Source: Myxococcales bacterium
GTDB taxonomy: Bacteria; Myxococcota; Myxococcia; Myxococcales; JAJYLH01
Length of the DNA: 41,984 nt
Reading direction: 5' to 3'
NCBI GenBank assembly: GCA_021787845.1
Contig: JAJYLH010000050.1
Location: 1-41,984 of the forward strand
Position numbers and translations under genes: made by a program. Positions 810 to 4,825 of this stretch are shown one piece after another. Position 1 is the stretch's first letter. Each line of letters begins with the position of its first letter. The notes under the pieces were generated by a model. The model was given only the letters and a program-made list of their open reading frames with translations, had not been told where the DNA came from and did not search any database.

Positions 810-1649
810 TCACGGCGGGTGGGAGGCATCCTTCAGCGCGAGAACGCGCGCATAGACCTCCTGCCGCGGCAGGCGGTAGTCGCGCGCGAGCGCCTTCGCG
901 ATGTCGCCCACGTGCTCCCCCGCCGCCAGCCGCTCCCGTATCGCCTCGTCGAGAGGTGGCAGCGCTTCCGCTTCGGGAGACGGCTCCCGCCCACCTTCTA
1001 CGACGATCACCACCTCGCCCCGCGCGCCCGCCGCGAAGCGCTCGGCCAGCTCCGGCAACGGTCCGCGCACGACCTCCTCATGCACCTTCGTCAGCTCCCG
1101 CGCGACCGCCGCCCGTCGCGGCCCGAGCGCGCGCGAAAGGTCCGCGAGCGTCTCGCCCGTCCGATTCCCCGCCTCGTACAGAATCGCCGTCACCCCCGAG
1201 CGCGCGACCTCCCCCAGCGCCGCCCGCCGCGCGTCCCCTTTGCGCGGCAGAAAGCCGAGGAAGAGGAACCGGGACGAGTCGAGCCCCGAGGCGGACAACG
1301 CCGCCACCGCCGCGCTCGGACCCGGAATCGGCACCACCGCGACGCCCGCGTCCAGGGCCGCGTCCACCAGCTTCGCGCCGGGGTCGCTCACCGCCGGGGT
1401 GCCCGCGTCGGTCACCAGCGCTAGCGATTGCCCGGAGCGCAGCCGCTCGACGAGAGGGCTTACGCGGTCCCGCTCGGCGAAGGCCGGCAGGCTGAAGAGC
1501 GGCCGCGAGAGGCTGAAATGGGTCAACAGCTCCCGCGTGCGCCGGGTGTCCTCCGCCACCACCAGGTCGACCTCCCCCAACACCCGCCGCGCCCGGGGCG
1601 ACAGATCCTCGAGGTTCCCGATCGGCGTCGCCACGACGAAGAGGGTCAC
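810..1649 (-). CDS. rsmI: 16S rRNA (cytidine-1402 2'-O)-methyltransferase RsmI
   Basis: RsmI methylates the ribose 2'-OH of C1402 in the decoding centre of 16S rRNA, using SAM, in the cytoplasm. The 279 residues match the usual family length. The N-terminus LFVVATPIGNLEDLSPRA is the family hallmark, followed by AEDTRRTRELL, the SAM-site loop LVTDAGTPAVSDPG, and PIPGPSAAVAALSASGL of the tetrapyrrole-methylase fold. The C-terminal third contains the TKVHEEVVRG segment seen in RsmI. It lies six bases downstream of the yraN-like gene on the same strand, the common bacterial pairing, so the two are probably co-transcribed together with the ATPase gene upstream. Nothing looks damaged. Confidence 0.95.
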   Translation of the reverse strand: MTLFVVATPIGNLEDLSPRARRVLGEVDLVVAEDTRRTRELLTHFSLSRPLFSLPAFAERDRVSPLVERLRSGQSLALVTDAGTPAVSDPGAKLVDAALDAGVAVVPIPGPSAAVAALSASGLDSSRFLFLGFLPRKGDARRAALGEVARSGVTAILYEAGNRTGETLADLSRALGPRRAAVARELTKVHEEVVRGPLPELAERFAAGARGEVVIVVEGGREPSPEAEALPPLDEAIRERLAAGEHVGDIAKALARDYRLPRQEVYARVLALKDASHPP

Positions 1650-1655
1650 GCTCTC

Positions 1656-2069
1656 TTAGCTCCCATCCTCGCCGACCGACGCGTCGAACGCCGACTCGAC
1701 GTGGACGAATTGGGGCTCGCGTCTCGCATCGAGCGAAAGACCGACCACGTCGAACCGAAGCGGGCGGGCCTCGAGACCGGCGCGCCAGACATAGTCCGCC
1801 GCCGCTCGGAGAATGCGCCGCTGCTTGGCGACTGTGACGCTCTCGAGCGGGTCCACTACCGACCCCCGCTTGCGCTTTCGGACCTCGACGAAGACGACGA
1901 GCTCGCCCTGGGCCATCACCAGGTCGACTTCGCCCCCACGGGCGACGTGGTTTCGCGCGAGCGGGAGGTAGCCCTGACGGACGAGGAACGACTCGGCGAG
2001 GGTTTCGGCGCGTTGCCCGGCCCGGCGGCGGGAGCGCGCCCGAGCGCGACGCCTGGCAGGAGCGCTCAC
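1656..2069 (-). CDS. YraN/UPF0102-family endonuclease-like protein
   Basis: This is a small (137 aa) restriction-endonuclease-like fold protein of unknown precise role; the family sits next to rsmI in many genomes. After a very basic N-terminus come GQRAETLAESFLVRQGY, RNHVARGGEVDLVMAQ and VVFVEVRKRKRG. These give the GEVDL Asp and the E-V-(K) half-site of the PD-(D/E)xK nuclease core; here the usual Lys of EVK is Arg followed by Lys. The start is chosen as GTG at 2069 because it overlaps the stop of the upstream ATPase gene (GTGA, four bases), which implies translational coupling, and because it gives the family length. A longer upstream reading would only overlap the ATPase gene. Nuclease activity is inferred from the fold. 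Confidence 0.88.
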   Translation of the reverse strand: MSAPARRRARARSRRRAGQRAETLAESFLVRQGYLPLARNHVARGGEVDLVMAQGELVVFVEVRKRKRGSVVDPLESVTVAKQRRILRAAADYVWRAGLEARPLRFDVVGLSLDARREPQFVHVESAFDASVGEDGS

Positions 2070-3871
2070 GCAGCCTTCTCGGCGCGGCCGACCGCCACGA
2101 GGTGATCGACCACCCCTGGCGGCGGAGCCTCGAACGCCCGGACGAGCACCTGGGTCGAGCTGCCGAGCGCCTTGAGCATCTTCACGAAGAGGGCGCGATG
2201 GCTCGTGTCGACCATCACGCTCGGCTCGTCGACCAACACGGGAAGCTTGAGCGCTCCCGCTAGCCGTTCGGCCAGCGCCAGCCGCACGCCGAGCACGACC
2301 AGGTCCCGGTCGGCCGGCGACAACCCCCCGATCGGTCCTTTCGCCCCGCCAGCGGCGACCACGTTGAACCCGCTCTCGCGCGGCTCGACCGCGACGAAGC
2401 GCCGGTCGGTCAAGGCGACGAGGTACTGGCCGAGCCGCTGGCCGAGCCCGCGCAAGAGGTCCGTCACTTGGCTCCCGGTCGCCTCGGCCGCCCGGGCGAT
2501 CGGCGCGGCGAGCGGGTCGTCGACGGTCGAGGTCAAGCCCAGCACCTCCTCGCAGACCTGGACTTCGCGCCGGATCGCTCCGGGGTCGCGGGAGAAGCCG
2601 AACGAAGTGACGAGCGCCTCGCGTTCCGCGAGCTGGGCCGCGAGCCCGTCCCGCTCTTGGGCGACGCCGGCGACCTGCGGGTCGCTCTTCACCTCCTCGA
2701 GCTCGCGCAGGAGGGCGACCCTGCGCGCCTCGAGGACGTCGCGCTCTTCCAGCTTGGCCGAGAGGGCTGCTGGAGAGCCCGCCTCCAAGAGCCGCATCGC
2801 CTCGTGGACGGGCGCCGTGTCGGCCTCGTACTGTTTCTCGATCCGCTTCTCGATCTCCAGGAGGTCGGAAAGGCGGCGGCGGCCTCCCTCCGCCTCCTCG
2901 ACGACCCCGACGAAGCGCCAGGCGGCGAACGCGGCGACGGCGAACCCGGCGGGAACGAGCCACCAGAGCCAGGCCCAGCCGAGGACGAGGGCGAGCGCGG
3001 CGCAGGCGAGGCCCCCGCCGACGCCGCCGAGCAGCATCTGGTCCTTCCACAACGCGGCCCGGCCGGGCGCGGCGACGGTCTGGCGCTCGTACTCCGCCTG
3101 CTTGCGCTTGAGCTCGGCGAGAGCGCCTTCTCTGTGCGCTTGCGCTTCGGGATAGTCCCGAATCTTCTGCTCCAGGCCCTGGGTGGCCTCGCCCAGCCGC
3201 CGGAACGCCAGCGCCTTCTGCTCCAGCTCGGAGATCTGCTCCTGAAGCTCGTCGACCCGCCGGGTGGTCTCCGACAGCTCGCCGATCCGAATCTGGAGCT
3301 GAAAGACCTCGTCCTGCACCTTCTCGAAATCGACCGCCTTGACGAGCTCTTGCTTGAGCCGGGGGAGCTTCTGGCGCGCCTCGTCCGCGGTGAAGCGCAG
3401 GTCCGTCTCCTCGGAGGTGGGCGAGAGCGCCGCCGGCTTCCCGCCACTCTTCCCGGTGCCCGCCTGGCTCGGCAGCGACGCCTGCTGGAGGAAGAACAGG
3501 TCGCGAAAGGCTTCCGGGGGCGGCAGACCCACCTGCGTCGCGAGGGCCTGGGCGACCTCGCCCTCCTCCTGGGCGACCGTCACCGGAGGCCCAGCGGCAT
3601 CGCTTCTGAGGAGCGTGCGGCCGCGGTCGAAATCGCGCACGACCCGCCAGGTGTGGCCGTCACGGCCGAGGATGGTCAGGGCCGCCTTGCGAGGAGTGGC
3701 GACGGCGGCGAGCTTGAGGCCGTCGTCGGAGGCCGGGTAGAGGACCGCGCGGATGAGCAACCCGAACTCGACCTCGCGGCCGACCAGGGCGTTGAGGCCG
3801 GCCTTGAGGGGAATCCGAGCGGTGGCCGGAAACCCGACGACGTTCTGGACGGCGATTTCGGTCAGGAGCAT
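2066..3871 (-). CDS. SMC/RecN/YhaN-like AAA protein with central membrane hairpin and degenerate Walker A
   Basis: The 601-aa protein has the layout of YhaN-type ABC ATPases: an N-terminal head half (residues 1-130), coiled coil (about 165-275), two hydrophobic segments (about 277-320), more coiled coil (about 320-430) and a C-terminal head half. The C-terminal half has a signature-like LSPADRDLVVLGVRLALAE and a Walker B-like LPVLVDEPSVMVDT. Where the P-loop should be (GxNGxGKS) the protein reads LNALVGREVEFG, with no glycine-rich loop and no GKS/T, so canonical ATP binding is not expected. It is the first gene of the run leading to the yraN-like gene and rsmI and overlaps the former by four bases. 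Its role is unknown; a membrane-linked DNA or envelope organiser is possible. The alignment to the SMC superfamily is convincing; the loss of ATPase activity is inferred. Confidence 0.75.
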   Translation of the reverse strand: MLLTEIAVQNVVGFPATARIPLKAGLNALVGREVEFGLLIRAVLYPASDDGLKLAAVATPRKAALTILGRDGHTWRVVRDFDRGRTLLRSDAAGPPVTVAQEEGEVAQALATQVGLPPPEAFRDLFFLQQASLPSQAGTGKSGGKPAALSPTSEETDLRFTADEARQKLPRLKQELVKAVDFEKVQDEVFQLQIRIGELSETTRRVDELQEQISELEQKALAFRRLGEATQGLEQKIRDYPEAQAHREGALAELKRKQAEYERQTVAAPGRAALWKDQMLLGGVGGGLACAALALVLGWAWLWWLVPAGFAVAAFAAWRFVGVVEEAEGGRRRLSDLLEIEKRIEKQYEADTAPVHEAMRLLEAGSPAALSAKLEERDVLEARRVALLRELEEVKSDPQVAGVAQERDGLAAQLAEREALVTSFGFSRDPGAIRREVQVCEEVLGLTSTVDDPLAAPIARAAEATGSQVTDLLRGLGQRLGQYLVALTDRRFVAVEPRESGFNVVAAGGAKGPIGGLSPADRDLVVLGVRLALAERLAGALKLPVLVDEPSVMVDTSHRALFVKMLKALGSSTQVLVRAFEAPPPGVVDHLVAVGRAEKAA

Positions 3872-4198: not shown

Positions 4199-4825
4199 AT
4201 GCGGCAGACTCTCATCGCACTGGCGGTCGCGGCGCTCGTCGCGCCGGCCGTCGCGCAAGCGCAGGACTACGGACCGAACTACGGCGAGGAGGAGGTGACG
4301 CCCCACCGGATGGGACGCAGCCTCGGCATCATGGGCGACGTCGGCGTCAGCCACTACAACCGGCACCTCGCCCACGAGACGAACACCGGCGTCGGGTACG
4401 GCGCGACGGTCGACCTGAGCCCGCAGCGCAACATCGGGCTCGAGCTCGGGTACGACGGCGGCGTCAACGACCTGTCGAGCAAGTTCTCGTCGGATGGCCG
4501 GCTGGTGACGAACGAGATCGGCGGTGACTTGCGGGTCAACCTGGTGCCGGCGACGTACTCGCTACCGGGCCACTTGAAGCCGTTCCTCTTCGGCGGCGCG
4601 TTCTACCACCGCATCGACACGCAGGGTTTCACGCCGGGCATCAAGGACAACACCAACGCCTTCGCGCTGCCGGTGGGCGCGGGTGTCGAGGTCGACGTCG
4701 GCAAGCGCTTCCTCGTCGGCGCCCGGTACACCTACAACTTCCTGTTCAACGAGATCAACCAATTGGGCGGGCGGAGCGACTTCTGGACGGCGACGGTGGA
4801 CCTCGGCGCCCGGCTGCAGCGGTAG
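4199..4825 (+). CDS. Outer-membrane beta-barrel protein (OmpA/OmpX-like barrel fold)
   Basis: A cleavable signal peptide (MRQTLIALAVAALVAPAVAQAQ, cut after AQA) is followed by about 185 residues of alternating polar and hydrophobic strands with aromatic girdle residues (GYGATVDLSP, IGLELGYDGG, PFLFGGAFYHRI, FLVGARYTYNFLFNEI, FWTATVDLGARL). This fits a small eight-strand outer-membrane barrel of the OMP_b-brl type. The ATG at 4199 is preceded by AAGGGAGG at ideal spacing; a nearby ATG at 4195 is in another frame. No periplasmic OmpA domain follows, so it is a stand-alone barrel. Its ligand or role cannot be told from sequence. It is monocistronic and ends at a hairpin shared with moaE. Confidence 0.8.
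   Translation: MRQTLIALAVAALVAPAVAQAQDYGPNYGEEEVTPHRMGRSLGIMGDVGVSHYNRHLAHETNTGVGYGATVDLSPQRNIGLELGYDGGVNDLSSKFSSDGRLVTNEIGGDLRVNLVPATYSLPGHLKPFLFGGAFYHRIDTQGFTPGIKDNTNAFALPVGAGVEVDVGKRFLVGARYTYNFLFNEINQLGGRSDFWTATVDLGARLQR

Follow-up and report, generated by a model that had tools for sequence, protein, structure and literature searches.

A candidate phylum-wide, membrane-anchored Rad50-type clamp working without ATP: a dismantled ATP machine with its fold, hairpin and locus kept

The window, by which we mean the whole stretch of 41,984 nucleotides that was analysed, carries a cluster of three genes on its reverse strand. The features to which the analysis refers are as follows.

2066-3871, reverse strand: Rad50/YhaN-type pseudo-ATPase gene, 601 amino acids, ATG start, single copy (from orthologues and fold)
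3464-3871, reverse strand: N-terminal head lobe, residues about 1-136, P-loop absent (from the secondary structure of the model and a Rad50 alignment that starts at residue 1)
3755-3784, reverse strand: degenerate Walker A position, residues 30-39, reading VGREVEFGLL (from sequence and alignment)
2900-3061, reverse strand: hydrophobic hairpin between both coiled-coil arms, residues about 271-324 (from Kyte-Doolittle peaks and model helices)
2075-2470, reverse strand: C-terminal head lobe, residues about 468-599, with the degenerate signature LSPADRD and the Walker B-like VLVDEP (from a profile match to Rad50 and column counts)
1656-2069, reverse strand: yraN (UPF0102, PD-(D/E)XK nuclease fold), 137 amino acids, GTG start (from PF02021 and the motif)
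810-1649, reverse strand: rsmI-type gene (TP_methylase relative), third of the cluster (the homologous M. xanthus gene matches PF00590; tblastn in relatives)

The frame at 2066-3871 translates into 601 amino acids with no internal stop, and a search of its own genome with this protein returned one match. Its TGA stop (2068-2066) and the GTG start of yraN (2069-2067) overlap as GTGA. The first-pass annotation had described the gene as uninterrupted and translationally coupled to a yraN-like gene; the open frame and the overlap are both real, and the identity of the neighbour follows from PF02021 (E 3.1e-22; 79.2 bits against a cut-off of 23.6). The motif E-(V)D...E-V-(K/R) is present in it as GEVD...VEVR.

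Several other elements lie around the cluster. On the rsmI strand, a tRNA-Thr (CGT) follows that gene closely at 666-741, and the ORF at 406-813 that spans it is probably spurious. Near the contig end, a short ORF at 80-583 gave a sub-threshold match to a C-5 cytosine methylase (17.4 against 22 bits). Upstream, at 4199-4822, where most relatives carry rplS, we observed a divergent gene for an outer-membrane beta-barrel (PF13505).

Two head lobes at the ends of the 601-residue protein each lead into a coiled coil, and a hydrophobic hairpin lies between the coiled coils. AlphaFold2 was run on the protein together with 23 named orthologues, 24 sequences in all, so that detail near the lost P-loop is unreliable. 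The model of the window protein (pLDDT 79.3, pTM 0.49) found its best PDB match for the head in Rad50 (3qf7; Z 24.9, rmsd 2.9, 274 residues aligned, 18% identity), with SMC heads ranking after Rad50. For the model of the Myxococcus xanthus orthologue (L092), the comparison with Rad50 gave Z 26.0 and rmsd 2.9 over 277 residues. In the models and the structure comparison, the N- and C-terminal lobes, joined by the coiled coil, together make up the head fold. By sequence alone, a profile of 30 of the same-order orthologues (A1) matched lobe II of Rad50 with E 2.3e-9. The head initially labelled "SMC/YhaN-like" thus stands, with a Rad50 fold in the model and a Rad50 match by profile.

Domain databases were less informative. 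Pfam gave the protein 16.4 bits for SMC_N against a cut-off of 40 and no match to PF13514 (AAA_27); as scores fell below the cut-off or were missing, membership of the whole protein in SMC_N, AAA_27 or the NCBIfam Rad50 families was rejected. Weak Pfam matches to RVT_N, DUF2203 and viral P10 were taken as coiled-coil noise. Among the members scanned, no Pfam or NCBIfam model covers the family as a whole above its cut-off, and the family is without a model of its own in either collection.

Between the coiled-coil arms, Kyte-Doolittle averages over 19 residues reach 2.15 in the segment starting at residue 279 and 1.71 in that starting at 306. The model places helices at 278-297 and 299-361, in a less confident block (pLDDT 67-79). 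A hydrophobic peak of at least 1.5 was found in 152 of the 153 orthologues that we read; a second peak within 45 residues reaches at least 1.0 in 143/153 and at least 1.5 in 77/153, so that 76/153 proteins failed the strict two-peak membrane test. Hydropathy thus supports the membrane hairpin proposed earlier, which occupies the place of a hook or hinge and probably sits in the membrane.

At the Walker A position, between the model strand 26-30 and the helix 36-44, the protein reads ALVGREVEFGLLIRAVLYP. There is neither a GK[ST] at this position nor a lysine anywhere in residues 24-52, and by the alignment P-loop relatives have 4 residues more in this loop. The first-pass annotation had read VGREVEFG here and had recognised no P-loop, and we agree with it. 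The two other frames of the same strand were likewise without a P-loop.

The protein has a single GK[ST], at residue 140 (SQAGTGKS). It falls in the linker that follows the first lobe, where residues 138-158 are disordered in the AlphaFold2 model (pLDDT below 50). We considered GTGKS (residues 138-142) as a displaced P-loop and rejected it. Since SQAGTGKS lacks the leading Gly/Ala of Walker A, and since only 3 of 144 P-less relatives carry a GK[ST] at residues 125-165, we take this motif as chance.

Of the 156 loci given, 154 matched, and after one partial paralogue was dropped 153 orthologues were read for the pattern [GA]x4GK[ST] in residues 16-60 (one of them, L022, by eye). The P-loop was absent in 144 and present in 9. 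Nor does a complete Walker A occur elsewhere in any of these 144 proteins. Absence that recurs on this scale is not chance.

Outside this sample the family is also widespread. With the window protein as query, 56 of the 60 same-order relatives yielded an orthologue; profile A1 yielded one in 139/147 genomes of the class and 168/195 of the phylum, with a single strong-scoring member in each genome. Eight of the 147 class genomes gave no match to the profile, so the gene is not universal. The genome of the window belongs to the order of Myxococcus. A narrower profile recovered the family in Myxococcus, Corallococcus, Pyxidicoccus, Archangium, Hyalangium, other Myxococcaceae and one record titled Comamonas. 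That record (L091, BNCN01000016.1, Comamonas sp. KCTC 72670) holds a Myxococcus-type locus with 87% identity to the M. xanthus protein and looks mislabelled.

In several other classes the family is very divergent (L220-L228, L071-L076), with several end branches above 1 in the tree; many of these loci adjoin rplS or yraN, and some show neither in the flank examined. Four same-order genomes of 2.1-3.0 Mb gave no family match (G021, G134, G135 (genus g17) and G015), and yraN is kept in three of the four. The gene may therefore be one that a shrinking genome can do without.

Across 11 pairs of named orthologues, dN/dS was 0.11-0.34, with 0.08-0.20 for the two head lobes. Selection on the family is purifying. 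If this were an ordinary SMC/YhaN-type ATPase gene that had decayed or been sequenced wrongly, its product would also lack the P-loop and could score below the SMC_N cut-off, as this protein does. The frame is open, however, the motif is equally missing from most orthologues and from the other frames, and the protein is under constraint; we therefore rejected decay or frameshift, which we regard as hardly credible. The earlier suggestion of a conserved pseudo-ATPase has accordingly held: its missing P-loop is shared across the clade, and no close orthologue with a normal P-loop was found among the genomes read from the window's class. We hold the identity of the family as a conserved pseudo-ATPase with high confidence.

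The remainder of the ATP site is also altered. Column counts were made over the 135 P-less members that reach the profile end and over the 9 P-loop members. The window protein reads LSPADRD at the signature, where of an LSGG-type motif the serine alone is kept. Among P-less relatives this serine position is proline in 100/135 and serine in 12/135; the fourth-position glycine is kept in 3/135. None of the 9 P-loop members keeps either residue. As the signature is degenerate even in P-loop members, it was lost before the P-loop or independently of it.

At Walker B, the first acid is E in 79/135 and D in 51/135 P-less members (acidic in 130/135) and D in all 9 P-loop members, while the second is D in 103/135 and E in 13/135 of the P-less relatives; the window protein has VLVDEP. 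The switch histidine is absent from the window protein (QVLVRAFE). At its position the six commonest residues in P-less members (A, G, P, S, T, R) account for 124/135, and P-loop members carry S, D, K or A. A histidine follows one position later in 62/135 of the P-less relatives. The first-pass annotation had described the C-terminal head as intact, with signature-like and Walker B motifs remaining. This is right for the Rad50-like fold only: VLVDEP fits Walker B, but the half is not catalytically intact, as the signature and the switch histidine are mostly degenerate.

For comparison, the long paralogues of the phylum, which we take to be YhaN-type from their motif, read LSDGSRDQLFLALRL, PVILDDVLQG and TQVIYFTHH, and the corresponding motifs in the family are LSPKDIDLYYLALRM, LPPADRDLCFLALRL and similar. 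Two residues are newly conserved in the P-less proteins, the H of QVLHVT (115/135) and the D of LPPxDxDL (127/135). This conserved Asp and His may hint at a new use for that face of the head.

Traces of the ATP site persist, namely the canonical-looking Walker B D-E and the signature serine of the window protein and the histidine after the switch position in nearly half of the P-less relatives. One could propose a still-active NTPase with a non-canonical nucleotide site, to which the almost always acidic first position of Walker B, the VLVDEP of the window protein and the linker GTGKS would lend themselves. Against this, the loop of the window protein is shortened and has no lysine nearby, the signature and, mostly, the switch histidine are lost, and the linker motif is not common to relatives. 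We consider such an activity very improbable.

All 9 P-loop members come from a single family (f11), in a different class of the phylum, and represent every genome of that family in the set (G147-G155). Their P-loops read, for example, VGGPGSGKT and VGGPGTGKS. Five of the nine pass the cut-off of Pfam AAA_23, and among the members scanned only P-loop members pass generic AAA models; PF13514 matches two of the nine, below its cut-off. Since rplS lies directly upstream in 9/9, as it does in 145/151 loci overall (those with at least 600 bases upstream), these proteins are orthologues by position.

Because the family has the fold of a P-loop ATPase, the motif is probably ancestral. Most likely, the ancestor had it, and it was lost at least once and stayed lost. 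In an unrooted tree of 82 of the rows read, for which the P-loop columns were left out, the P-loop members fall into a single clade (SH-aLRT 100), and f10, a P-less family from the class of the window, groups beside f11 with a support of 90. A single loss is compatible with this tree if the root falls on the branch of the P-loop clade, and midpoint rooting together with class membership suggest several. Rooting with three YhaN-type paralogues gave an outgroup that was not one clade and had long branches, and hence no usable root.

A pseudo-head might also serve as the regulatory half of a heterodimer, pairing with a YhaN or SbcC-type head that is active and controlling the ATPase of this partner. 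Candidate partners occur in some relatives, where second long frames match the family in their C-terminal lobe: 1270 amino acids in G033 (E 1e-8), 1137 in G112, 1490 in G098 and 1190 in G099. Moreover, the four paralogues from elsewhere in the phylum that were fully read all have P-loops, three GPNEAGKS and one GANGSGKS. The genome of the window, however, has no second family member; the next match (E 0.01) covers coiled coil only. It contains one weak PF13514 match over the cut-off (22.3 bits), and this search says little, since PF13514 matched in 14/14 control genomes and exceeded its cut-off in 13. A pseudo-head without a signature would, besides, not sandwich the ATP of its partner in the canonical way. 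We rate a heterodimer as improbable. The frames in G033 and G112 (G033:C1:198810-199142 and G112:C1:8437989-8438321, both under the Myxococcus genus code and both with E about 1e-8) are perhaps YhaN or SbcC-like.

In M. xanthus the gene order is trmD, rplS, pseudo-ATPase gene, yraN and rsmI. The high frequency of rplS directly upstream has been given above; the window is one of six exceptions, with its rplS on another contig (C68). The nuclease gene is a less constant neighbour. The earlier annotation asked whether the gene always adjoins yraN, and it does not: of the 131 loci whose flank runs to 500 bases or more, yraN is directly downstream in 99 and somewhere within the flank examined in 107, so that rplS is the steadier neighbour. 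Of the 130 loci whose downstream flank extends for 1400 bases or more, 106 contain an rsmI match there.

YraN itself was found in 178/195 genomes of the phylum. It is present in three genomes that gave no match to the pseudo-ATPase gene (G021, G134, G135), and G100, which carries the pseudo-ATPase gene, gave no YraN match. Obligate pairing with YraN was rejected on this co-occurrence. As both co-occurrence and linkage are incomplete, we read the pair as an ancient cluster of genes whose partnership is not strict.

The same neighbourhood could speak for a membrane factor tied to translation or the ribosome and transcribed together with trmD-rplS and rsmI. The constancy of rplS upstream and the frequency of rsmI, an rRNA methyltransferase gene, favour such a role. 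In the window, however, the gene stays with yraN and rsmI while rplS is on another contig, the fold is that of the DNA-handling Rad50/SMC heads, and ribosomal operons often carry unrelated genes along. Linkage to rplS and trmD could thus reflect a translation role or mere co-transcription, and we find the former unlikely to be the function of the protein.

We lean slightly towards reading the family as a phylum-wide, membrane-anchored, ATP-independent scaffold of Rad50/YhaN type without ATP-binding motifs. With each half of the composite site missing, a canonical ATP sandwich would form neither in a homodimer nor between this head and an active one; this, together with the lack of a second family member in the own genome, is why an ATP-independent scaffold is favoured. 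Without such a sandwich, the heads would either stay together permanently or be bridged by a different ligand, DNA or protein. The hairpin would take over from a zinc hook or hinge by inserting into the inner membrane, and the coiled coils would hold a pair of heads in the cytoplasm. The protein may then tether or clamp nucleic acid, along with the enzymes that process it, at the membrane without using ATP, a mechanism that we put forward tentatively. The cargo would perhaps be DNA, possibly with YraN. The adjacent nuclease is a speculative, non-obligate candidate for a client. Roles in DNA uptake, repair or the envelope, as raised in the first-pass annotation, are a guess.

YraN is placed in the PD-(D/E)XK family in PMC1189080, and PMC12455585, citing a preprint by Hardy and others, describes it as a helicase-associated nuclease that aids transformation. 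Our search of the open-access literature, made without locus tags, found no paper on the family, though one may exist, none on YhaN with Rad50, and, for rplS/yraN/rsmI, none featuring yraN.

Our understanding of SMC and Rad50 proteins is built on heads that open and close with ATP as the driving force. A conserved, syntenic family in which the head fold survives without P-loop and signature lets one ask what this fold does without ATP, and the P-loop-bearing branch and M. xanthus as a tractable host make the question askable. The chances seem even to us that the whole picture holds, that is, a phylum-wide, membrane-anchored Rad50-type clamp that works without ATP, in which the ATP machine has been dismantled and the fold, hairpin and locus kept. 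If true, it would be a natural test of a Rad50/SMC head with ATP taken out.

The known systems compared include defence ATPases (Lamassu LmuB, JetC, PtuA and others). The sole P-loop member tested (L065) matches LmuB and mad3 with E about 1e-9, its best stretch being the P-loop segment, whereas the window protein reaches E 0.0012 or worse and comes from a housekeeping locus that is near-universal in the class. Assignment to a defence system was rejected for lack of score and of context. SMC proteins (SMC_N, PF02463) are similar in the head fold (Z about 20-21) and weakly so, below the cut-off, in the SMC_N profile, but at 601 residues the window protein has no room for long arms and a hinge domain, and it lacks the P-loop.

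Like the family, YhaN has a hydrophobic segment within its coiled coil, and one paralogue of the phylum (L131) shows such a segment too. The long paralogues further share with the family the signature-helix pattern D-x-x-x-L-A-L-R-L and an hhhDD Walker B. The four that were fully read differ from the family in their P-loops and in the length of their frames (911-1196 amino acids), and their label comes from the motif and not from a PF13514 score.

Differences from Rad50/SbcC concern the ATP site, the apex, the size and the locus. The window protein is without P-loop, LSGG signature and switch histidine, and has a hydrophobic hairpin at the apex; the CxxC zinc hook is absent too, the only two cysteines being at 290 and 440. 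It measures 601 amino acids against about 850-1050, as taken from the end residue numbers of the matched Rad50 and SbcC chains. No mre11/sbcD-like neighbour was present among the M. xanthus genes scanned, and in the window the neighbours are yraN and rsmI; for the family they are yraN, rsmI and rplS. What the family has in common with Rad50/SbcC is the head fold (Z about 25-26), the profile match to lobe II (E 2.3e-9) and a split head joined by an antiparallel coiled coil.
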